Of a stretch of 64,000 nt of DNA, positions 286 to 56,692 are shown one piece after another. Both the position numbers and the translations under genes were made by a program. Source of the stretch: Icerya purchasi. Taxonomy: Eukaryota > Arthropoda > Insecta > Hemiptera > Monophlebidae. Location of the stretch: contig CM077116.1 of assembly GCA_039619475.1 (NCBI GenBank), positions 248,195,440 to 248,259,439 on the forward strand, in the 5' to 3' direction. Under the pieces are notes generated by a model. The model searched no databases, was not told the origin of the DNA, and saw only the letters and a list, made by a program, of their open reading frames with translations. Within the stretch, counting starts at the first letter, position 1, and every line of letters starts with the position of its first letter.

Positions 286-314
286 CATAACTTGTATACG
301 ATCACGATCACGAT

Positions 315-3300
315 ATGCCTTTGTCAATCCACTCCTGGATGAAGGGTTTCCCCAATATCTTCCATCCACTTCTGTTCCGTGCATTCCTCAACCAGTTCTT
401 TCCAGCTACCTTTACTATATCATCCTGTCAACGCATCATTGGTCTTCCTTGGTTTCTTTTTTTGCCTATTGCCTACCATCGCAAGATACGCTTCGACCAT
501 CTATTATCGTTTCTTCTAGCTACGTGACCAGCCCAACTCCATTTCATTTTGGCCATCTATTCCACTATGTCGTCTAGCCCTGTTTGTTCGCATATCAATG
601 TATTACGAATACGATCCATTTGCCTTGTACATATTTAGCATTTTCCTTTCATGCGCAGTTTGAGTTTATCTGATCCTTTTTATACCCGTTTTTGTGAATG
701 GTCACGTTTCTGAACTGTATGTCAGGACCGGAAGTACACATTGGTTATACAATTTTCTTTTCAAGTTAATCGGTATTTGTTTAATCCGAAATACACCGCT
801 TAATTTTCAAAACGCAACCCACGACAGTGATATTCTCCTCGTTATTTCCGCTTTCGTTATGTTCTTTTTATTTGTCGTGATTTTCTGACCTAAATAAATG
901 TAACTATCCACCTGTTCTATTTTTTCCGAATTTATTGTTATTCTTATTCGTCTTTCGGTGTTTTCTCATTATTTTTGTTTTGTCTAGGTTTATTTTTAAT
1001 CCTATTTTGTTAGAATGTAGATTCAGGTCTGTTATCATCGTCTGTAGTTCTTCTGCGCTTGTGCTCACTAATGCTATGTCATGCGCGAATCTGAGGTGAT
1101 TTAGATATTCGCCGTCTATTTCGATACCTGCTGTAACCCAATTTAAATTCTTGTATACGATTTCCAATACGTAGATAAATAATTTTGGAGAAATGGTGTC
1201 ACCTTGTCTAACTCTTCGTTTTACTGGGATTTTTTCCCTTTTGTTCCGTAGACTTATTCGCATTGTAGCGGAGCTGTTAATATTCCTAATAATGTTAATA
1301 TACACTTGTCATTAATCCCAGTGAGATTTAACGAATTTAGTACTGCCCAGACCTCTTTTGAATCGTAATCTATGAAGGCTATGTATAATTCCATATTGTA
1401 CTCACTTCTGTATCAATGTTGTAATTGTTAATAGGTGGCCATTTGTACTAAATCCTCACCTGAAGCCAGCCTGCTCTCTCGGTTGATTAAGGTCAATTTG
1501 TTCTGTTAGTCGATTCGTTATTACACGAGTAAATAATTTTTGTATATTTGCGACAATAAACTAATTACTCTATAATTATTCAAATTTTGCGCATCTCCTT
1601 TTTTATGTGTAAGCACTACTTCTGCTTCAGGCCATGGTGCGGCGGGAAAGTGTTTCTTTCTAAACATCGATTGAAAAGTTGACAAATAACATTAGCAGCA
1701 TATTTCCACCATGTTTAATCATCTCTGCCAGGATCCCGTCTGGTACCGGTGCTTTGTTATTTTTTAATGCTCGAAGCGCATTTCTTACTTCATCTTTATT
1801 TATCTTAGGGATATTTTCAATGTTTTCATTCTGACTTTATGTGTATTTATCATTATATTTGGCTGAATTCTTGCACTGTACAGATTTGTAAAATAGTTTT
1901 CCACTTCTTCCGTTATTTTACATTTGTTTATTATAACCTTTCCAGTAGCACTCTTTATTTTTGTTAATATTTCGTTACCGCGCGCCAATGCTTTTCTAAA
2001 TATTTTCAGACCTCTGTTGTTTTCGACATGGTTTTTTGTATTAGACGTGCGTTAAGTTTCCGAGCATCACTCCTCATTTTCTTTCTCAATTTTTTATTCA
2101 ACTCTGCCCACTGAATTAGATTTTTATTCTTATCAACTTTTAGCATTCACCGTTGTTGTAGTAACAATGTAGCCTGTGCACTTAATTTACTGCTGACTAT
2201 TTTGTCTTTCTGTGCTATTTTAATCGCACACTACTTCATTGTTTCCGCTATGAACTTAGCTTCATCCTCAATTGATATTGATATTGTTGAGCTGTTTAGT
2301 AGTGCAGTTTGTAAGTCTACCAGGAGTGCTGCATTGCATTTTGTGCTAGTTTTTCTGGATCTATTTTGACTGACGTCTGTTTCGCTCTATATTGGTCAAT
2401 ATGCTTCAGATTAATTTTTAGTTTGCCTCTTACTAATCTGTGATCGCTACCGGTATTAACAGTATTTGACACTGTAACATCTTGTATAATGTGCAAATTA
2501 TTTGAAATAACATAATCGATTTCATTTTTGTATATGAACTCAGTGCTTCTCCACGTCCACCTTCCGTTTTCCCTCTTTTTAAAGAATGTGTTCATGGCGT
2601 AGAGTTTGTTCATTTCGAGGGAGCTAGTTAGTATTTCTCCTCCTTCATGACACCTGTACCATGGATTCTGATTGCTGTCTCTTTTTCATCACAACGGATC
2701 CCGATTATAGCATTGAAGTTTCCAATTATAATTGTATATATACATTTGTCCTCGTTTAAGCTATCTTGTATTTTGTTATATAAGTTTTCTACTTCTTCAT
2801 CGTGGTGATTTTTTGTCGGTGCATATACTTGTATGATTTTGAGTTTCTGTTTCTCATTTATTTGTATCATAATGTATGCGATTCTGTCAGATATTCCGAC
2901 ATACTTTTCTATTTTGTCACACCACTTCTTGTTTATTAAAAAACCTACTCCATTTATACGATTATTGTCTTGACCGTGATATAGTACATGTTGGGATTTC
3001 AATTTTATTACGTTCTCACCAGGTCTTCTTACTTCGTTTAACCCAAGTATGTATGTCCCATTTAATCTTACCTATTTCCTCTTCTAATTCAATTAATTTG
3101 TCTTCTGTTGATAATGTTCGGACATTATATGTACCTATGTACACCTGGCAGTAGTTCTTTGTCTTGTAACTTTGAAATCCACTTAGTTTTTGCCCATATC
3201 GAGGTTTTTTGTCATGTTCAGGTAATTTATTCAGCCGGTTTTTGCTCCCTCTATTTATGTTTATACTAGGCGATGAGGGAGCTAGTGTCGTATCCGGTTG

Positions 3301-3348
3301 CCCATTATGTCCTTGACTGCTATGGCCTTTCCTTCTTTTTGCTGCCAT
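315..3348 (-). pseudogene. EN-RT polyprotein of RTE copy A, inactivated
   Basis: The endonuclease part (3348-2317) shows TYNVRTL near its start, then GNFNAIIG where the family has GDFNA, and GSDHRLV near its end. The RT part (1305-904) has VRQGDTISPKLF, the palm motif FAHDIAL instead of FADDIAL, and an I-DKTK motif. The region 527-315, read in reverse, gives the usual C-terminal 'W.ELVEECTEQKWMEDIG' tail. Changed catalytic residues in both EN (GDFN to GNFN) and RT (ADD to AHD), plus frameshifts near 1310-2310 and 2620, make it non-functional. Confidence 0.8.
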
Positions 3349-3826
3349 GTTGAGGAAATTAAAAGCTTAATCGCCCGTGCTGTCCAAGCAAATTGGGAGA
3401 TACATTTTATCCCTACTACCAGGTTAGTTATTATATAGCTGTACGTGTTCATCTTTTATAAATATTATTGTAATTATTGTAATTATCTATTTCATTTTTG
3501 TTGGTTTCTTTATCGCGTTTAAAACTATTTAATTTTAATTTGTATAAGTGCTTTATTGTAGGAGCAGAGGTAGTGAGACTGTGTTATTCTGCTTCTGTTT
3601 TTCTGCCAGGGTTTACTCCCTTAGCCGAAAGGACCCGGTTTGTAGGCGCCGGATATTCGCCTTACTCTCTCCAGATTGATATGGACCAATCCGACTGGGA
3701 CACGTTGTCGTGAGAGAGGTGCTGACAGCTTGCTAGTTATAAATGCAGTTGTATCTTAACGGTATTTATGGTAGGAACACCTTCGGCAGATGAACGTCTC
3801 CCATTTTACTGTCAGCGATTTGTTGT

Positions 3827-4023
3827 ATGAGTTCTGATTTAGCCTTTCTCATCAAGCCTACGCCCGCCGAAAAGGAAGTTACCAACCCGCACGACGTGAA
3901 CGTACAGAACTCACTTGGTCGTGGTTTCGTTTCCCTGCCGGTGGGACTAGCACCATACGGCAGTCGAATGACTACTTACTAAAGAAGGTGACTCTAGTTA
4001 CAACGACCTGTGCCCCGCGAGTC
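3827..4023 (-). ncRNA. HDV/CPEB3-like self-cleaving ribozyme at the 5' end of RTE copy A
   Basis: On the minus strand the first seven bases of the element, GACTCGC (4023-4017), pair with GCGGGTT (3890-3884), giving a 7-bp P1 with wobbles. P2 is GTGAGTTCTG (3914-3905) with CAGAACTCAT (3836-3827). P3 is ACG/CGT around a loop TTCACGT (3900-3894), the same loop as in the mammalian CPEB3 ribozyme. GG (3883-3882) follows P1 as expected for P1.1. P4 pairs CCTTTT with GAAAGG. The joint after P4 reads CTAA, fitting the catalytic CNRA rule. A large extra domain lies between P1 and P2. The 5' base of P1 abuts the target duplication. Such ribozymes are known at 5' ends of RTE elements; activity here is inferred. 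Confidence 0.85.
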
Positions 4024-15294: not shown

Positions 15295-17101
15295 CATGGG
15301 CGCCGGGAGCAGGGTGCAAAGAGGTGCACTTGCACCCCCCTGTTGGGAAAAAAGATTAAGAATTTTTTTTATTAAGTCACCGTTTGAATAAAAACTTAAG
15401 GCGTCTGGATTTCTGTCCAAATTTGTTTATCACCTTGTCGATAAATCCAGTGTCCTCCTCTGCTTTTTTCCTGTGAACATTGAGCATGCACAGGCCGCTT
15501 AGCCTTGCGTCTTCCATCGTTGACCGATTCCAAGTCTTGACACGTCCTAACGTTCTAAATGTTCGTTCAATGCTGCATGTTATTTGCTGGAATAGTTAAA
15601 CCAATTTTGATTGTCTCACATACCGAGAAGTAAAACAGGGTGGCTCGAACAATCAAATATGCGTATTCAACGATGGATTCATTTAAAGCCGCATCACTTG
15701 CTTCATTTATCTTCAATATCGCATACCATGTGATAGCCTCGGCAATAAAATTATGCAGAAAACCTCCATAAAGGTTCTGTATATCTTCTGCTACATCTAA
15801 AAATTAAAATTTATCTAATTTTCTGATATTTTCTGGGTGAAGCTGCATAAGTGAAAATGATTTTTTGTGTGTTGAAGAAAATCGATTTCTCAGAGTGATA
15901 GAATCTGATAATGGGATGAAGATAGATATTCTGAAAAATTCGTTTACATTTTCAGATGGTTGATTTGATCTCTGAGCCTGCCTTGCCACTACTCGAGGAC
16001 GCTTAAATTCAACATTCAATTCTTCGCAAATTTTTTGAATTTTCTCGAAAATGACTGAAAACTCCATGGAGGCATTACCCCGATGAAACTGAAGCACGTC
16101 CATTAATTTATTTACGTGATCATGTATCGGCTTTATATTCATATTTACTTCTTGTAATTGGTTGCGGCAGACGGGTTCAAGTTTGGCAGAATAGGAAGCA
16201 ATTACTAGGAGTGTCACAGTATATGTTGGAGTTGTTGCAGTCGTGTATAGCTGATATGCTTTGGTTTTCCTTTTTTAAAAGTTCAGTGCGTCATGTGAAA
16301 GTTCTTCTAAAACTGGTACAAAAGTTAGAAAGTTTTTAGAAAATTATCTGATACTTTTGTACTTTGCTGTCCAACCCGTTTCACAAAAGAGAAGTATATT
16401 TAGAATTTTATTTCGCCGCAATGTACTCTCTCTAAAAAAATGTATTATGTTCTTTCTCTAGTCCCAGCGGTATTTCTTACTTCACTGACATCATTCAGAT
16501 CATTGATGACAAGATTCAATGTATGGCTTGCATAGTGGAAAAATAGAGCTGAAGGATATTTGTCAATAATTTTCTGACCACCTTCGTATCTTGCCATTAA
16601 CTGAACGTACAGTAAATCCCAACATATATTTTTATAGGAAATTGAACACTATACAAAAGAGGTATTTAGAAAAATATATATTGTTCATATTATGAGTTTT
16701 ATTAATTAGCGAGTTATAAAATTAAGAAGAAAAAAAAAATTTTCCTCAGTTCTTCAAATTTTGACCTTTAATATCTTTTAAAAGGTTAGATTAGTGGAAA
16801 AAGTGTAAGAGGACATCTTTTGTAGAGCATTCAATTTCCTACAAAAATATGTGTTGAAATTTTCTATACGTTCAATTAATGAATTTTTTCATATGGGACT
16901 GAGGTAAAAATGGAAAACTTTGTTGAGAAGGACCTTCCTATTATATTAAGAGCTCATATTTGGAGATAATTTTCTAGGGGTGCATAGCAACCAATTTTTC
17001 GGTATCGAAAGTAAAAAAAAAAAAAAATAGTCGATTGTTTTTACCCACCGTAGTGTAGATGCAGATGCACCTCCCTGAATATAATCCTAGCGGCGCCCAT
17101 G
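15295..17101 (-). mobile_element. hAT element, copy 1 (8-bp target duplication)
   Basis: Flanked by perfect direct repeats ATTGTTGT at 15287-15294 and 17102-17109. The ends are inverted, CATGGGCGCCG at both sides. On the minus strand a broken transposase shows the hAT core end (PSALFFHYASHTLNLVIND, near 16540-16480). A long region at 16217-15804 follows (KPIHDHVNKL, CEELNVEFKRPRVVARQAQR). The C-terminal dimerisation region sits near 15600-15430. The N-terminal DNA-binding part is absent, so it is a deletion derivative. A palindromic MITE lies inside at 16617-16858. Sister of 18406-19861. Confidence 0.85.
16617..16858. mobile_element. Palindromic MITE nested in hAT copy 1
   Basis: The left arm contains CAACATATATTTTTATAGG and then AAATTGAACACTATACAAAAG. 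The right arm, reverse-complemented, reads CAACACATATTTTTGTAGG and then AAATTGAATGCTCTACAAAAG. The block has no counterpart in the sister copy at 18406-19861, but that copy also lacks neighbouring sequence. Exact limits and target duplication not resolved. Confidence 0.6.
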
Positions 17102-18405: not shown

Positions 18406-19861
18406 CATGGGCGCCGGGTGCAAGAGAGTTAACTTGCACCTCCCCGTTTGGAAAGGAAAATACACAGAAAAAGATTAAGAATTTTCTTTTATGAAGTCAC
18501 CGTTTGAATAAAAACTTAAGGCGTCTGGATTGCTATCCAAATTCGCTTATCACCTTGTCGATAAATTCAATGTTCTGCTCTACTCTTTTCCTGTGAACAC
18601 TGAACATACACAGGCCGCTTAGTCTTGCGTCTCCCATCGTTGACCAATTCCAAGTCTTAACATGTCGTAACGTGCTAAATGTACGTTCAATGCTACATGT
18701 TGTTGCTGGAATAGTTAAACCAATTTTGATTGCCTCACATTCCGCAGGGTAAAACGGGGTGGCTCGAGCAATCAAATCTGCGTATTCAACAATGGATTCA
18801 TTTAAAGCCGAATCACTTGCTTCATTTGTCTTTAATATCTCGTACCACGTGGTAGTCTCGGCAATAAAATTTTATAGAAAACCTCCATAAAGGTTCTGTA
18901 TATCTTCTGCTACGTCTAAAAATGAAGATTTATCTAATTTTCTAGGTGAAGCTGCATAAGTGAAAATGCGTTTTTGTGTGTTGAAGAAAATCGATTTCTC
19001 AGAGACGAAATGATAGAATTTAAATATGGGATAAAGATAGATATTCTGAAAAATTCGTTTACATTTTCAGATGGTTGATTTGATCTCTGAGCCTGCCTTG
19101 CCACTACTCGAGGACGCTTAAATTCAACATTCAATTCTTCGCAAATTTTTTGAGCTTTCTCTAAAATGACGGAAAATTGCATGGATACATTATCGCGGTG
19201 AGACTGAAGCATGTCCGTTAGTTTATTTACGTGATCGTGTATCGGCTTTATATTCATATTTACTTCTTGTAATTGGTTGCGGCAGACGGGTTCAAGTTTG
19301 GCAGAATAGAAAGCAATTACTACGAGTGTCACACAATATATGTTGCAGCGGTAGCAGTCGTGTATATATGCTTTGGTTTTCCTTTTTTTAAGAGCTCAGT
19401 GCGTCGTGCGAAAATTCTTCTAAAACTCGTACAATAGTTGGAACATTTTCAGAAAATTTTCTGATACTTCTGTACTTTGCTATCCAACGTGTTTCACAAA
19501 AAAGAGAGGTGGTATATTTGGCATTTTATTTCGCCGCAATGTATTCTCTCTAAAATAATTGATGATGTCTTTTGTAGTAGTAGCAGTATTTCTTCCTTCA
19601 CTGACATCGTTCAGATCATTGATATGGCAAGATATGAATTTTTTCATATGGGATTAAGGTAAAAATGGAAAACTCTGATGAGGAGGACCTTCCTATTAAT
19701 ATTAAGAGCTCATATTTCGAGATAATTTTCTAGAGGTGCGTAGCAACCAATTTTTCGGTATCGTAAGTAAAAAAAAATAGTCGATTGTTTTGACCCCCCC
19801 CCCCCCCTCCTAATGTAAATGCAGATGCACCTCCCTGAATGTAATCCTGGCGGCGCCCATG
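18406..19861 (-). mobile_element. hAT element, copy 2 (8-bp target duplication)
   Basis: Perfect direct repeats AGAAACTG lie at 18398-18405 and 19862-19869, with ends CATGGGCGCCG in inverted orientation. The minus strand carries the same broken transposase as copy 1. Region 19332-18934 has NIKPIHDHVNKLTDML and FKRPRVVARQAQRSNQ. The frame at 18775-18533 is a well-kept hAT C-terminal dimerisation domain (IGLTIPATTCSIERTFSTL, then RLSGLCMFSVHRKR). A deletion relative to copy 1 removes the core near 19630. Non-autonomous. Confidence 0.85.
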
Positions 19862-30199: not shown

Positions 30200-32870
30200 G
30201 TTCTATATACTTTCAACTGAGATGCGTACACCGTACATATCATCTGCGTGCTTAATATTTTTTAAAGATACCGTATCCAATAGTTTTCGTAGATCTTTAA
30301 AAATATATGTCATCGAGGACGATAGGTCAGCATCCTCTAGTATTGTGGAGAACAAAGAGGAACGTGCTGCTACGTTGACCCGCATATTACGAGGCACTCC
30401 GATGTGCCGAGGAACCCAAATCATCGTCACATGGCTGTACATTTGATGTAGTTGATGTAAATAATAGTATATTTTTAATATTAGCGGGTTGTTATATTTT
30501 TGGTTTTTTAATATGTTTAAAGACTAGGAAATCATTAATTATGAGGATATTATTAGATTTGTTGTGGTCATAATGAGGTGATAGAAGCAGTTTGTAATTC
30601 CATGAAGTTCTGCATCGAATATAAAATAGGCATCATTAAGTCTAAATTCGTGTGTAACGCCCTGATTTTCAAACTCGCAGGCGGTTAACAATGCCTCTGC
30701 TTCACCATTTGCCTTTGCTCCATTATTGTCGTAAACTAGTTGGTCCAAATATTTATTAATTGCTCTAGCTGCCACTTTCGTCGTACATATAGGACTTATT
30801 ATTCCTGGATTTTGTTCTAGCAATGTATCGGTATTTACTTGAAAATAATTTCAATGGAGATAAGAATATTAGGGCTGGGTATTGGCCTTTCTAAACACGC
30901 GGTACCGTGTCCTCGTAAAGTCGCCAGTATTCTGGAGAAGGTCGCCTAAGAAAACAGGTTCGAGAGAATAGTGATCCAATTGTAGAAGAAAGTTTTGTAT
31001 ATAGTTGAGATAGAGATACATATTTCTCTGTATGCAATATTTCTAAAGGACGAAGGGTAACCGGATAAAGTACAAATAGTGGTAACTAATGAAGTTCGAT
31101 GGGCTCCCAGTGCACAAGGTCGAGGAGTTTTAACGGAGATTTACTGGTCGAAAAATACACCTGTTCTCCGTAGTTGATTTTTGAAAGATACGAGTATATA
31201 GATATTAAAAAGGAATTTAGGGTTGATGTTTACAAATCATATGCTTCAATATGGGGATAAATTTAGTGCATTTAAGTTTCAAATCAGCAACATGAGGCTT
31301 CCATGGAGTCAAAGGTTAAACTGCGAAATTTAACAAACATTTTTTGAAGAAGGAGAAGTTTTTTAGATGTAGGACAAACTCGGAGAGGAACGACGTCCCC
31401 TGTTAAAGTCGACATATACAATTTTACTAGTCGAGATGACTAGTCTGTTGTTTTCACATTAACTTTGTATTTATCAATAGTTTTCTGGACAATTTTCTGA
31501 GCGTTAGAAAGAAAGCCGAACGATAAGGAGCTGTTACGATCGATAAACAGTCGGGTGGATATGGGAAACAAGATACAATTAGCTACATCACTAATGGAAA
31601 TTATAAACAAGATTGTACTAAGGGCAGAGCCTTGTGGCAGTCATTCTCAGATGGAATGAGTGATACTGACGAATCTATCTTTACTCAGATCGCCTGTCGT
31701 TAAAAAAGCTGGTAATAATCTTGTACATTTGGCCATTTATTCCAGCACTATTGAACTTTAATAATAGTCTATGCTGTCATATGCGATCAAATGCTTTTTC
31801 TAAATTGAAAAAGACAGCATACATGTGTTGATGCCAGTGGACGCTTGTTAATATTTACGATTCAGGTGTATTAAGTGATAACCTGTTGATCTCTCAAGCT
31901 TGAATAAGAGAAAGGATATTTTTTTGTTCAAGGAAATGTAAAAGGTGTCCGTTCACTATTTTTTCTATTATTTTTGGTGGGATGCTTAAAAGAGAGACGG
32001 AGCGATAGCTTTCAGGACGGAATGCGTTTTTATTTTGTTTTAATATAGGATTAATATACTCCATTTCCCAGGATTAGGAAATATTTTCGGATGACCAAAT
32101 TTGGTCATATATATTTCGGAGAAATTCTTTTGCCTATGGTGATAGGTATTTAGCTTTATATGGGTGAACTTCAGACGTAGAAAAATTATTGTTGCTTTTG
32201 AAAACTGTCGGGGAAGACGTAGTTCTTTTTGTTTACAAAAAGCTTTTATAGAAGTAACCTCAGTAGGATAGACTAGGGAAGGGAACTTTTTTTGATAGTG
32301 TTGTGCGAAGACATCCGCAACGTCGCCTAAATCCGATATGACCAAGATATGGATTAAGGAGATTAAATGATTAGATCGGCTAAAACCGTTCATTAATTTA
32401 ATTTTTATCTGCGTCATTTGGTTGGATGTAGTTTGGATGATAGTCACAATAAAAGAATTCCAGGGTTTTTGCTTCTTCGCTTTAATTATGAAACGTGCTT
32501 TAGCACATAGCTTTTTGAATTTACAGGTATCTAAATGTACGAGTAATTTTAATGATTTGTATTTTTTGAGAGCTCGCTTGCGGTTTCGTATTGTCAGACT
32601 GACTTCAGTGCACCACCAAGGAACACGGCGGAAATGAGACAAAAGGGTATATTTAAGAATCGTCGTATCAACTACAGCCTTTTTAATATCTTTATGAGAT
32701 GTAACTATTACTATATTGCCAGCGAAGGAGAATAATTCATTGGATTTTATTTTCTTTTGTAGCCCGTTTGAATATATAAAGTATTGATTTACGCGTAACT
32801 CGTATTCATATGAACCGATTTTAATGATTCTTTTTCCATTACAAAGAGTACTATTCAACTGAGATACCAT
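30200..32870 (-). pseudogene. Jockey/I-like non-LTR retrotransposon, decayed and 5'-truncated
   Basis: The 276-codon minus frame 32870-32040 carries the linker between endonuclease and RT typical of Jockey/I-like LINEs (VPWWCTEVSLTIRNRKRALK, then KLCAKARFIIK). RT remains lie in broken frames below, including NLEKAFDRI near 31815-31790. An RNase H domain follows: FRLNDAYFIFDAELHGIT (about 30640) and VTMIWVPRHIGVPRN (30430-30390). Many frameshifts. No endonuclease upstream, no poly-A or target duplication identified. It lies antisense in an FNBP4 intron. Confidence 0.75.
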
Positions 32871-39161: not shown

Positions 39162-39226
39162 TTTCTTTCCATTCTTCTTCTTCTTCTTCTTCGACGTGTC
39201 GTACGCAGTGTTCTGCGCGTAGACGA

Positions 39227-40948
39227 TCATATATTATGGCTTCTTGCCGCCTGCATCAGTTGTCCTATCGATGATTTTTTGGTCCACTGTCGGACATTTC
39301 TGGTCCATGATATTCTTCTTCGACCTCTTCCTCGTTTCCCTTCTATTTTTCCTTGAATGATCAACCGTAATAGTTCATATTTTTGTCCTCGTATAATATG
39401 ACCAAAATACCTAGTTTTTCTTGCTTTTATTTCTTCAATTATTCTCCTTTCCGTTCTAGCTCTCTTTAGCACCTCTTCATTAGACATTTTCTGTACCCAA
39501 GATATCTTCAAGGCTCTTCTATATAACCACATTTCGCACGCTTCGAAATATTTGAGTGTTCTTACGGTATATGTCATTGCTTCGACCCCATACATTAGAA
39601 TCGGATATATATAGCATTTTATGAAATTCTGTCTTATGCGGAGACTTAGTGATTGGTCCGTTAACAATTTTTTAAACTTCTCAAACGTTGTTTTGGCTTG
39701 CCCACATTTTCTTTTAACTTCAGTATTTGGATCAAGCTTCTCTGTAATATAACATCCTAGATACTTAAATTGTTTAACTTCTTCGATGTTTTTCCCATTA
39801 ATCTGAATAGTTGTGTTTCGATGTTGTTTGCGACTGACTACCATAAATTTTGTTTTGTTTTCATTTATCCCTAGTCCATATTTTTTACCTGCTTCATTAA
39901 CTTCGTTAATAATATTTTGTAACTGTTCACAAGAGTCAGCCAGAAGAACGGTGTCGTCTGCATAGCGGATGTTATTTATGTACTTTCCATTTATCTGAAT
40001 CCCAGCTCTGAGATTCCATAACGCTTGCTCAAAGATACTGTCTGCATATAGGTTAAACAGGAGCGGTGACAGTATACATCCTTGTCTGACTCCTCTATTT
40101 ATACGGACGCTTTCTGACATTTTGTTTTCTACTAAAATCTTGGCGCTCTGTTCCCAATACAATTTCTGGATGATTCTCATATCATATTGATTTATTCCTT
40201 TGTTTTTTAAAATTCGTATTAAATGGTCGTGCTTGACTCTGTCAAAAGCCTTCTCGTAATCCAAGAAACATACAAATACATCTTTTTGTTGATCGTAGCA
40301 TTTCTGTAGAGCTATATTTACTGCTACCAATGCTTCCCTAGTACCGTATCCTTGTCTGAAGCCGAACTGACATTCATCCATATCTCTTTCGCATATATTT
40401 CTTATTCTGGCGTGCACTATTCGTAGTAAAATTTTCAGAAGATGACTCATTAAGCTAATCATTCTATAGTTGTTGCAAGTATTAGAGTTTGTTGTCTTTG
40501 GTAATGTAATAAATGTTGATTCTAACCACTCTTGTGGTATCTCGCCAGTATTGTAGATTTTATTGTAGATTTCCGTTAATTTTTCAATATTCTCATCATT
40601 TAATAATTTAATTATATCTATTGGGATACCATCGGGACCTACTGCTTTTCTTACTTTTGCTTGTTGTATAGCATATTTTACTTCGGACTCTAGTATCTCT
40701 AAATGTTCTTCATCGTTCATCGTTTCAGTTGCTTGCTCCGTCCTTATATCACTAAATACTTTTTCTATGTATTGTGTCCATACCTTTATTTTATCCTCGG
40801 TATCTGTAATTAATGTGCCTTCTTCTGTAAATAACTTTGCGAGTACTTTCTTTTTGTAGATACCGGTAATTTCTTTAACTTTTTTATGCAGATTAAAAGC
40901 ATCGTGTTTTTTCTCCAGATCTTCCACTTCCTGACAGCGCTCAGACAT
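39227..40948 (-). pseudogene. Reverse transcriptase region of RTE copy B
   Basis: 573 codons are open. The RT fingers/palm motifs are intact: AVGPDGIPIDIIK, then FGFRQGYGTREAL, CFLDYEKAFDRV, NRGVRQGCILSPLLFNLY, catalytic IRYADDTVLLA, and NKTKFMVVSRK. The thumb and C-terminal LINE signature follows (KYLGCYIT, WLYRRALKISWVQKMSNEEV, TRYFGHIIRG, GRGRRRISW). The frame continues upstream of the first ATG (RSAKNKWMSERCQ) but is separated from the endonuclease frame by a frameshift near 40985-41010. Catalytic YADD is kept. Confidence 0.9.
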
Positions 40949-40952
40949 CCAT

Positions 40953-42310
40953 TTATTCTTTGCTGACCGTATTTTTCCTTTTATATTTCTCTGAATATCT
41001 GTATATTATTTTATTTCTTTTTTGTTTCCGTCGTTCTTCCATTAATTTTAGGATTTCATCAGTCATCCATGGATTTTTCTTCCTACCAGTGGTTCTTCCT
41101 ATATTTTGATTACATATTGTAACCATTTGTTCTGTGATTTTCGTAATTCTTCCTTTTATTCCATCTGTTTTTGTTTCTTCATATGCTTTTGTGAATGTTT
41201 CGTTTATCTTCATACGCATTTTTTCTTTCGTTTTTTCATCTTGTAGCCTGGTTACATCTATTACCGGGTTATTATTTGTTCCTCTCTTCTTCATTTTTTT
41301 CCAGTGTAGTTCAAACCTTGCCACCACTGGGTTATGATCTGATCCTACATCAGCACCTGGGTACGCTGTTACTCTTTTAATTGCGTTCCTGTATCTTTCA
41401 TTAATTATAATATAATCGATCTGGTTCCTTATTACCCTATTTTCAGTACTGCTCGGCGACTCCCATGTATATAATCTCCTTTTGGGCATTTTGTACCACG
41501 TATTGCTTACTACTAAATTGTGATGCTTGCAAAACTCAAATAATCGGTCTCCCCTTTCATTGGGATGTCCCAATCCGAACGGTCCTACCCAATTTTGTCG
41601 TCTGCCTTCTCCTATTTTCGCATTAAAATCACCCATTATTATCAAAATTTCATTTGGTTTTGTGACTGTCTTAAGCTTTTCTATATGGTTGTATTGCTCC
41701 TCCGTCTCTTCATCATATTTCGGATCGGCAGTTGGAAAATACACCTGTATAATATTCATGATGACGTTTCCGAATTTCGTTCTAATTAGCATCAGTCTTT
41801 CTGAGAATGGTGTAAATCCTATTACGAAGGGAATATATTGTTTACAGATAATCATTCCAACTCCATTTATGTGTTTCAAATTATTATTTCCGGAGTAGTA
41901 GAATTTTCCTTCTCTTGTATTTATTTCTAGTGATGTTCACTTATTCCAAGTATGCCAATTTCCATTCTTTCCATTTCTTCTAACACATTCTCTAATTTTC
42001 CCGGTTGATATAAACTTCGGATGTTCCATGTGGCGATTTGTATCTGTTGTTGCGTTTTCCTAGTATTATCCTTAGCAGACGGTGGTATTCTTCGCACCCT
42101 GTGCCCCCTAAAGGGCCGCACCGGACTCAGGGCCATTTTCTTGTGATTTTCTGCCATATATGATAACCTGGGAAAATTACAGCGGTGGTTTCCCTCTTGC
42201 CTTCCGCCGAATTTTTCTGTAGGGGTTGTCTCCCTTAGCACGAGGGGGGGGCGGACCCGGTTATAAGGCGCCGGGTGCTCGCCTACTCGCCCTGAGTTGA
42301 TATTCATCAA
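40953..42310 (-). pseudogene. APE endonuclease region of RTE copy B, split by a frameshift
   Basis: The N-terminal part (42310-41927) carries IATWNIRSLYQPGKL and GILGISEHH, the first APE motifs. A frameshift near 41930 separates it from the larger part (frame from about 41932; 41879-40953 after its first ATG). That part has GVGMIICK, IMGDFNAKIG, RRLYTWESP, NQIDYIIIN and GSDHNPVVA. All expected catalytic motifs (N, E, D-x-N, D, S-D-H) are present. A second frameshift at the 3' end separates it from the RT. Confidence 0.85.
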
Positions 42311-42446
42311 CTCGACTGAGGCACATAGTCACGGGCGAGCTTCTGGTAGTCTGCTAGATATATATGCAGAAAAAGCTTAACGGTATTTAAAAGCAGGCGT
42401 ATTATCGGCATCTACACCTCCTTCCGTTTTCCTACCAGCGTATAAT

Positions 42447-42641
42447 GTGAGTTCTGATTTAGCTTTTCTGATCAATTCTAAGCCCATCGAACAGAAAATT
42501 TCCACCCCGCACGACGTGAACGTACAGAACTCACGAGGTTGTTGTTTCGTATCTATGTCAATGGGACTAGCACTACAGACATAGAGTGACTACTTACTAG
42601 AGAAGGATGCTCTAGTTACAACAACCTGTGCCTCGCGGGGC
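42447..42641 (-). ncRNA. HDV/CPEB3-like self-cleaving ribozyme at the 5' end of RTE copy B
   Basis: On the minus strand the first seven bases, GCCCCGC (42641-42635), pair with GCGGGGT (42510-42504) as P1. P2 is GTGAGTTCTG (42534-42525) with CAGAACTCAC (42456-42447), 10 perfect pairs. P3 is ACG/CGT around TTCACGT (42520-42514). GG follows P1 for P1.1. P4 pairs TTTTCTG with CAGAAAA. The joint after P4 is CTAA, matching the catalytic CNRA rule. The predicted cleavage site is exactly the junction with the target duplication. Between P1 and P2 lies a 100-nt domain closed by GGTTGTTG/CAACAACC with two hairpins. Orientation is antisense to FNBP4, so it would not cut that pre-mRNA. Confidence 0.88.
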
Positions 42642-42653
42642 TTTCTTTCCATT

Positions 42654-55373: not shown

Positions 55374-56692
55374 CACCCTGTCAAGAAAGTATCGGGAATT
55401 GTCAATTTAAATCTCCCGGGTAATAGCTAGGCAGATAATTTTTATTTTCCAGGTTGGTACAACTGTTTTGTATTATGATGCCTATTTTTAGCGCGATCTG
55501 TCAACCAGTGTGTTTACAGCAGCTGTTAAAATCAGTCGACCTTGAAGTGTTTTGTCGAAGTTTTACAATGAGTGAAAATATTGAACAACGTACTTGTGTT
55601 AAATTCTGTGTTTCGAACGAAATTTCTTGTGCCGATACACTGAAAATGTTACAGAAGGCTTTTGGTGAATCTGCTTTATCAAAAACGCGGGTTTACGAGT
55701 GGTACAGAGCGTTCAAGGATGGTCGGGAGACGGTCGAAGACATGCCTCGCTCTGGACGGCCTTCAACGAGTGTGACCGATGATAACGTCGATAAAATCAA
55801 GGAAATCGTTGCTGAAAATTGTCATGTGAGCTTGAGAGAGATGGCTCATGGATTGGGCATGTCACACGAGAGCGTACGTACGATTGTGCACGAAAAATTG
55901 GGTATGCAATGCGTTGCGGCTCGGCTTGTTCCGAAAGACCTGAATTTCTTTCAAAAAAAGTACCGAGAACAGGTAGCTGCAGACATGCTGGATCGAGCCA
56001 ATTTGGATCCTACCTTCTTGGAAAAGATAATTACTGGTGACGAGACATGGGTGTACGAGTACGACACGCTTACGAACCAGCAATCGTCCGAATGGCGGCC
56101 AATTGGCGCGCCAAAGCCGAAAAAACCTCGCCAAAGCCGATCGAAAGTGAAGATCATGTTGATTGTTTTCTTCGATATTCGAGGCGTGGTACACTATGAA
56201 TATGTGCCAGCCGGACAGACAGTCACCAAAGAGTTTTACTTAAGTGTTTTGAGACGTTTGAGAGAGGCTATCCGTCGTAAACGTAACGATTTGTGGGTCG
56301 ACAATTCTTGGATTCTCCATCACGATAATGCGCCGTCTCACAAAGCCATAATTGTGAATGAGTTTTTGGCCAAACACTCGGTAAATATCATCGAACAACC
56401 GCCGTATTCACCAGATTTAGCACCCTGCGACTTCTTCCTATTCTCAAAACTCAAATTTCCGCTACGGGGAATGCGCTTCGAATCGATTGATGACATCAAG
56501 ACGAATGCGACGCGAGAGCTAAAGGCCATCCCGGAAACCGCCTATCAGAAGTGCTTTGCCGAGTGGAAAAAGCGTTGGCATATGTGCATCGCTTCGAATG
56601 GATGTTATTTTGAAGGTGACAAAATAAATTTGGATGAAAATTAAAAATTGTTCGTTTTATTTAACAATTCCCGATACTTTCTTGACAGGGTA
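55374..56692 (+). mobile_element. Complete mariner element, apparently intact
   Basis: 1319 bp between TA dinucleotides (55372-55373 and 56693-56694). The terminal inverted repeats of about 28 bp match except possibly the first base: ACCCTGTCAAGAAAGTATCG, then GGAATTGT, at both ends. It carries one uninterrupted transposase frame (55568-56644). Near-identical termini and an intact frame suggest a recent insertion, possibly still mobile. It lies in the sense orientation in an FNBP4 intron, 305 bp after a donor. Confidence 0.95.
55568..56644 (+). CDS. Mariner transposase, 358 codons, intact
   Basis: The start at 55568 (MSENIEQRTC) is chosen because mariner transposases begin just before the first helix-turn-helix; the in-frame ATG at 55454 would add 38 residues from the 5' UTR. 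Two N-terminal helix-turn-helix motifs are visible (to about residue 110; KTRVYEWYRAFKDGRETVED, then the linker MPRSGRPSTS). The catalytic triad follows: ITGDETW, HHDNAPSH and SPDLAPCD, with 34 residues between the second and third Asp (DD34D). The WVP-like linker and the YSPDLAP motif are conserved. Length is close to the family's usual 340-360. No stops or frameshifts. Confidence 0.93.
   Translation: MSENIEQRTCVKFCVSNEISCADTLKMLQKAFGESALSKTRVYEWYRAFKDGRETVEDMPRSGRPSTSVTDDNVDKIKEIVAENCHVSLREMAHGLGMSHESVRTIVHEKLGMQCVAARLVPKDLNFFQKKYREQVAADMLDRANLDPTFLEKIITGDETWVYEYDTLTNQQSSEWRPIGAPKPKKPRQSRSKVKIMLIVFFDIRGVVHYEYVPAGQTVTKEFYLSVLRRLREAIRRKRNDLWVDNSWILHHDNAPSHKAIIVNEFLAKHSVNIIEQPPYSPDLAPCDFFLFSKLKFPLRGMRFESIDDIKTNATRELKAIPETAYQKCFAEWKKRWHMCIASNGCYFEGDKINLDEN

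Follow-up and report, generated by a model that had tools for sequence, protein, structure and literature searches.

The drz-Agam-2-1 ribozyme is linked to RTE elements, and HDV-like ribozymes of R2, R4, L1 and RTE elements were reportedly described by Ruminski et al. in 2011. Ribozymes of RTE elements that cut at the 5' junction of the element are already known (PMC3774820), and acceleration or activation of drz-Agam-2-1 of Anopheles gambiae by a base-paired J1/2 together with a long P2 has been described (PMC4908430). The RTE clade is characterised by a single ORF (endonuclease and RT), a very short 3' UTR, a simple-repeat end and a target duplication (TSD) of 6-12 bp or more (PMC2887409). 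Hybrid R2/R1 SIDEs of Drosophila, in which R2 ribozymes are joined to R1 ends, have been reported, as have template jumps (PMC3414825).

Here we describe a related arrangement in the window, i.e. the whole 64-kb stretch of DNA analysed. We consider it likely that the 5' end of the element concerned (element 1) consists of a predicted HDV-like ribozyme and a second RNA domain, which together form a cassette of about 430 nt that belongs to at least five RTE lineages and has probably been exchanged between them. The element is delimited by the following features:

39174..42641, minus strand: element 1 (family A), an RTE-clade non-LTR retrotransposon, identified from 12/12 TSDs on both sides, Exo_endo_phos_2, Exo_endo_phos and RVT_1 domains, and sister copies that match it in length and carry TSDs.
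42642..42653, minus strand: 5' TSD copy of element 1, AATGGAAAGAAA, read from the sequence.
39162..39173, minus strand: 3' TSD copy of element 1, a 12/12 repeat of AATGGAAAGAAA placed after the (GAA)n tail.
42155..42157, minus strand: likely start codon of element 1 (MAEN..., as in P0001 MAENSRTTALSPVQPLNGHRV).

These limits follow from the recurrence of AATGGAAAGAAA (42653-42642) as a 12/12 copy at 39173-39162, behind (GAA)n, and the duplication lies directly 5' of the first P1 base (42641), as the original prediction had proposed. The exact TSD is 11 nt long in 11 of 15 sister copies, and the twelfth base (A) of element 1's TSD may be part of the GAA tail. A single ORF with endonuclease and RT, a very short 3' UTR, a simple-repeat end and a TSD are all present, as in the RTE clade. 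Length, TSDs and RTE-type domains agree with the earlier description of a full-length RTE, but the reading frame of the window copy is broken; in each of the sister copies L019, L020 and L022 one frame is open over 1013 codons.

Among 1494 protein matches, the 120 listed as best share 42-61% identity with the RT of element 1. RT trees place element 1 beside P0114, named as a Bombyx endonuclease-reverse transcriptase, and in a group with proteins from other sources, P0001 among them; family D, represented in the window by element 2 (below), groups with nematode RT proteins. P0114 and the nematode neighbours are presumably RTE elements, judging from PMC2887409 rather than from labels on the trees. 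Since element 1 and family D group with proteins from other sources and from nematodes, respectively, the coding lineages are likely to be older than the host genome. Two kinds of N-terminus occur among element-1-like proteins, RASQVV.KRNPC or APSPGQPL.GQGVLRI (P0005, P0006, P0049, P0062, P0068, P0072 and P0120 versus P0003, P0008 and P0010), and both may derive from a single stretch of DNA translated in two frames.

The window holds three further features of other kinds: a remnant of another LINE at 31702-32127 (minus strand), with a weak RT match to element 1 (24% identity, E 1e-5); a mariner-type transposon at 55439-56644 (plus strand), a long open frame whose domains are Transposase_1 and DDE_3; and a pair of similar open frames separated by about 3 kb, at 15804-16274 and 18934-19395 (both minus strand; KRKTKAY...EVNMNIKPIHDHVNKL...), which are probably a duplicated repeat.

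The cassette at the 5' end of element 1 was resolved into the following parts:

42447..42641, minus strand: predicted HDV-like ribozyme, from descriptor, covariation and the start of 20/20 fetched copies; predicted cleavage just 5' of 42641.
42635..42641, minus strand: P1 5' strand GCCCCGC, pairing with GCGGGGT at 42510-42504, the first pair being G.U.
42525..42534, minus strand: P2 5' strand GTGAGTTCTG, pairing with CAGAACTCAC at 42456-42447, 10/10.
42511..42523, minus strand: P3 (ACG/CGT) with loop L3 TTCACGT (42520-42514), from sequence and alignment.
42502..42503, minus strand: GG of P1.1, which pairs with bases of L3 in 31 of 32 cells.
42464..42498, minus strand: P4 (TTTTCTG/CAGAAAA) and P4b, 6 of 12 pairs changed on both sides.
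42459..42462, minus strand: J4/2 CUAA (DNA CTAA) with the presumed catalytic C42462; the C and both following A positions are invariant.
42535..42634, minus strand: J1/2 domain, a three-way junction of P1.2, P1.3 and P1.4, from covariation.
42627-42618 with 42545-42536, minus strand: P1.2, closing stem of J1/2.
42616-42610 with 42602-42596, minus strand: P1.3 hairpin.
42584-42578 with 42559-42553, minus strand: P1.4 hairpin.
42212..42446, minus strand: second RNA domain, with stems S1, S1a, S2, S2a and S2b, an H-type pseudoknot and a short hairpin, S4.
42284-42280 with 42270-42266 and 42276-42271 with 42260-42255, minus strand: H-type pseudoknot of the second domain.

On the minus strand from 42641 to 42447, P1, P2, P3, P1.1 and P4 could all be read in the nested topology of the HDV double pseudoknot that had been proposed, including the ten perfect P2 pairs of GTGAGTTCTG with CAGAACTCAC (10/10), and the assignment of this stretch as an HDV-like self-cleaving ribozyme fold is thus supported at the level of prediction. 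The CTAA joint, described earlier as being of the CNRA type, is borne out by C180, A182 and A183, which are invariant in 16/16 rows of the alignment described below. It is followed by A184, one variable base and then P2'; A184 (A42458) can pair with U118 (U42524), extending P2, and this pair is U-A in 16/16 rows. The loop TTCACGT, which we take to be that of the CPEB3 ribozyme, is present in element 1 as claimed, but it is not a family-wide feature, being found in 3/16 aligned copies; TCCACGT occurs in 10/16, and in this form of L3 CC can therefore pair with GG as P1.1. The J1/2 region is a folded domain of about 100 nt with conserved loops, and the base-paired J1/2 and extended P2 are traits of the drz-Agam-2 type, the comparison being one of architecture, not of sequence. 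The ribozyme forms the front half of the cassette of about 430 nt, behind which lies the second covarying RNA domain.

A related cassette is present elsewhere in the window, at the 5' end of a different element:

298..4023, minus strand: element 2 (family D), a decayed RTE-like element of another lineage, from RVT_1, a 9/12 TSD at 4035-4024 and 297-286, and trees.
3598..4023, minus strand: 5' cassette of element 2 (ribozyme and second domain), 73% identical to that of element 1 over 433 columns and matched by the descriptor.

Matching pieces of one reading frame flank element 2 on both sides, which, together with the 9/12 TSD, makes it most likely that its cassette and coding part are one insertion; the flanking frame matches DUF4371 at E 0.0042, a value below the curated cut-off and obtained on pieces joined with X. 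In both elements a frame of about 70 codons crosses the ribozyme core (42380-42589 and 3769-3975, both minus strand; 45% identity), and when this frame was used as bait no relative was found in proteins, viral_contigs or genome_contigs; it is probably due to chance.

Comparison of elements 1 and 2 over 107 pairs gave 76 unchanged, 9 changed on one side, 10 changed on both sides and 12 broken. When the same substitutions were dealt to random paired columns, the means were 2.2 double changes and 22.4 broken pairs, and 0/20000 draws were as good on either count. The signal is modest for the ribozyme helices alone (p 0.019 and 0.008), and for the downstream helices alone 0/20000 draws were as good on both counts, the second domain having 6 double changes and 3 broken among 50 pairs. 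Five of the 12 broken pairs sit in P1.4, where five of the seven element-1 pairs are broken in element 2 because other families pair P1.4 in another register. An RNAalifold fold of the two sequences was rejected as a model, as pseudoknots cannot be drawn in it.

The analysis was extended to a 16-row alignment of cassette copies of all families, in which 103 pairs were scored and in which L036 and the single odd copy E (L037, with no TSD found) were included, neither being counted as a family. Over the 16 copies 92.4% of cells pair (89.0% in shuffles, 34-41% in slid controls), and 24 pairs have double changes, as compared with 14.5 in shuffles (0/500 as high) and 4-9 in slid controls; the number of 'further pair types' in these copies, 58, was not above that of shuffles (62.3). 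Pairing of P1 and P2 was found to be kept in genomic copies, with 97.1% of cells paired in P2 and 91.7-97.9% in each of P1, P2, P3, P1.1 and P4. Changes on both sides affect 2/7 pairs of P1, one C-G pair being replaced by U-A in B, B2 and C, and a second one by A-U in element 2; six further double-change pairs lie in P4 and P4b, and three each in S1, S2 and S2b. In 13-14 of the 16 rows the outermost drawn pairs of P1.2, S2a and S4 do not form.

With the 195-nt ribozyme as query, a search of the host genome (1.10 Gb, 41 contigs) yielded 40 scored matches from 1872 first-look candidates, all 96-100% identical; 35/40 match from base 1, and 8/40, the window's own among them, are identical (100%) over 1-195. 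The best 20 apart from the window's were fetched, and 20/20 start at G1, the first base of P1, so that the element boundary coincides with the predicted cleavage site, as had been suggested from the window alone. Because these copies were full matches beforehand, the test lies in where the likeness ends rather than in the presence of base 1; their flanks differ, except for those of L012 and L014, which are alike. An exact TSD of 10-14 nt stands behind the GAA tail in 15/20 fetched copies (that of L019 being an AT repeat), and in 12 of these 15 the start is fixed, since the next base differs from G. The TSD search gave only chance matches for L015 and L017 and none for L009, L010 and L027.

The cassette of element 2, used as a genome query, gave 40 scored matches among 2189 candidates; apart from its own locus, nine are 86-91% and thirty 80-81% identical. 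Nineteen of these copies (L029-L047) were read and comprise families D, B, B2, B3 (L041 alone), C (L046) and the odd copy E (L037); a coding match is missing from four of the 19 (L030, L034, L038 and L040). Among 16 more C copies, nine have a coding match and three (L049, L052 and L060) are full length with a TSD, the frame of L049 being open over 986 codons. TSD-bounded copies with both cassette and coding region were found for A (L019, L020), B (L039, L045), B2 (L047), B3 (L041, the single locus read, with a broken frame), C (L049) and D (L031). A similar cassette of about 430 nt thus fronts at least five distantly related RTE coding lineages in one genome. This sharing, the second cassette in the window and the structured domain downstream of the ribozyme had not been noticed in the original prediction. 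In L044, L045, L049 and L052 the 3' TSD copy differs at G, which therefore belongs to the element; for the remaining TSD-bearing copies of B, B2 and C the start can be placed only to within one base. The same holds for D, where an A likewise follows the 3' TSD copy in L030, L031 and L032. The odd copy E (L037:97-2336) has a cassette 86-88% like that of family D and an RT only 21-31% like any other compared; it is a possible sixth lineage, represented by one copy. More distant cassettes occur in the host genome at 73-78% identity. Within viral_contigs, exact DNA patterns gave 0 matches and the element 1 RT as query gave nothing; all cassette families come from one genome, and no relative outside it was found in the above searches.

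Two of the copies are short. L030 (841 nt, cassette from 97) and L028 (868 nt, with the 5' cassette) are TSD-bounded and could be taken to suggest that the cassette originated in a separate short non-autonomous element, SINE-like and made of ribozyme and tail, whose 5' half was repeatedly fused to RTE coding regions, a scheme for which R2 SIDEs and R2/R1 hybrids provide a precedent (PMC3414825). The 3' ends of the two copies, however, match family D (L030) and family A (L028), so that both appear to be internally deleted derivatives of autonomous elements; an independent SINE was not noticed among the copies read, and we regard such a source as unlikely.

The reading in which the cassette was exchanged between RTE lineages rests on comparison of its history with that of the coding regions. 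Cassette identity between families is 72-90%, whereas protein identity between the same families is 25-39% (54% for B-B2), some of these values covering parts of 224-254 residues. When whole elements were compared in 15 family pairs, B and B2 aligned nearly throughout; in each of the other 14 pairs a long DNA match begins at nt 1 or 2 and ends at nt 419-477, and five of these 14 show additional matches of 25-132 nt. Across six families the tree distances of cassette and RT are uncorrelated (r = 0.04; 279/720 permutations as high): B-C and B-B2 are separated by similar cassette distances (0.138 and 0.121) and by RT distances of 3.71 and 0.80, respectively. On the cassette alignment the AU test rejects A+B+B2+B3 versus the rest (p 5e-5) and A+B+B2 (p 0.025), and on the RT alignment it rejects B+B2+C (p 0.009) and B3+D (p 0.0001), the clades tested having been chosen after one of the two trees was known. 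C and B3 have long RT branches, flagged by the tree software, and B3 is placed with B in RT trees at 94/92 and 87/99. Since the distances are uncorrelated and each grouping is rejected on the other alignment, the cassette has likely been exchanged between RTE lineages. Vertical inheritance of a cassette ancestral to these lineages, with the RNA under much stronger constraint than the protein, would accord with the strong constraint seen in the 16-copy covariation and with the position of all tree-examined lineages within one broad EN-RT group; it is nonetheless quite improbable given the uncorrelated distances, with their contrast between B-C and B-B2, and the rejection of a shared topology in both directions.

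Within the window, searched on both strands, the double-pseudoknot descriptor matches nowhere but at 42641 and 4023, whether the minimum for P2 is set to 6, 7 or 8 pairs, and it has 0 matches in 100 Markov-1 random strands of 64 kb (P2 of at least 7 pairs); as it was written after element 1 had been seen, only the match at 4023 is independent. Rfam scans gave no HDV-type match at gathering score or at E<=10, nor any in L039, L049, L031, L030 or L041 at E<=5, such a match being an aid to detection and not a defining property of HDV-like ribozymes. That the 5' region is instead a conserved structured leader for translation or RT binding, which resembles HDV without cutting itself, is very improbable, for although these Rfam results and the half or so of the cassette that is not ribozyme would fit such a leader, a whole double-pseudoknot core with an invariant C and a first P1 base that is the element boundary in 20/20 fetched copies are hard to explain without cleavage.

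For a cleaving, exchanged cassette the following mechanism may be envisaged. Cleavage by the ribozyme would release element RNA from host transcripts that read through it and would thereby restore the same 5' end in each round; the folded J1/2 and long P2 may speed folding of the ribozyme, as was measured for drz-Agam-2-1. The downstream domain could serve the uncapped RNA via the host, most plausibly, as a conjecture, by ribosome recruitment or by blocking exonuclease, and it probably does not depend on being recognised by its own RT, because the proteins behind the cassette are only 25-39% identical. Transfer would occur through template jumping between co-expressed element RNAs, near the cassette end. 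We lean, with less confidence than for the cassette itself, towards the view that ribozyme and host-facing translation or stability domain form a mobile part within mobile elements and have been traded as a unit between long-diverged RTE lineages, so that the 5' ends of these LINEs follow an evolutionary path of their own, dictated by RNA processing rather than by the RT.

These observations bear on how LINEs acquire HDV-like ribozymes and why such ribozymes recur across clades. With at least five lineages in one genome, and with similarity that stops close to where the structured RNA ends, acquisition by exchange becomes directly testable. The findings also suggest that the domain behind the ribozyme is portable and can function alongside many different proteins; in an engineered counterpart, PRINT, a Tribolium R2 ribozyme is combined with bird R2 proteins (PMC12222951). 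In a literature search covering largely open-access papers, no transfer of a ribozyme cassette from one coding LINE lineage to another was found, and what is new here is a ribozyme family with a branched J1/2 and a downstream domain that occurs, in conflict with the RT tree, in several coding lineages within one genome.

The cassette resembles several known systems and departs from each. With drz-Agam-2-1 it shares an HDV core, a structured J1/2 and a P2 longer than 7 bp (PMC4908430, PMC4513843), but it differs, in a comparison of architecture rather than sequence, in that its J1/2 forms a three-way junction whose loops are conserved and in that another conserved RNA domain follows. Like the ribozymes of R2, R4, L1 and RTE elements, it has its predicted cleavage site where a non-LTR element begins, at the 5' junction (PMC3774820), whereas here one ribozyme family and its downstream domain are common to lineages with a discordant RT tree. 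In the R2/R1 SIDEs, too, a 5' ribozyme from one non-LTR element is attached to a different element (PMC3414825); those are short and non-autonomous, whereas full coding families bear the cassette described here. Pr77 of the trypanosomatid L1Tc/ingi elements is also a 5' HDV-like ribozyme region common to many elements, but it comprises 77 nt in one element clade (PMC4035085), as compared with about 430 nt and discordance with the RT tree in the present case. Finally, exchange of ORF1 in CR1/L2 provides a case of reticulate, modular evolution of the LINE 5' part (PMC4120745), in which the exchanged module is a protein, whereas here it is non-coding RNA that is predicted to be catalytic.
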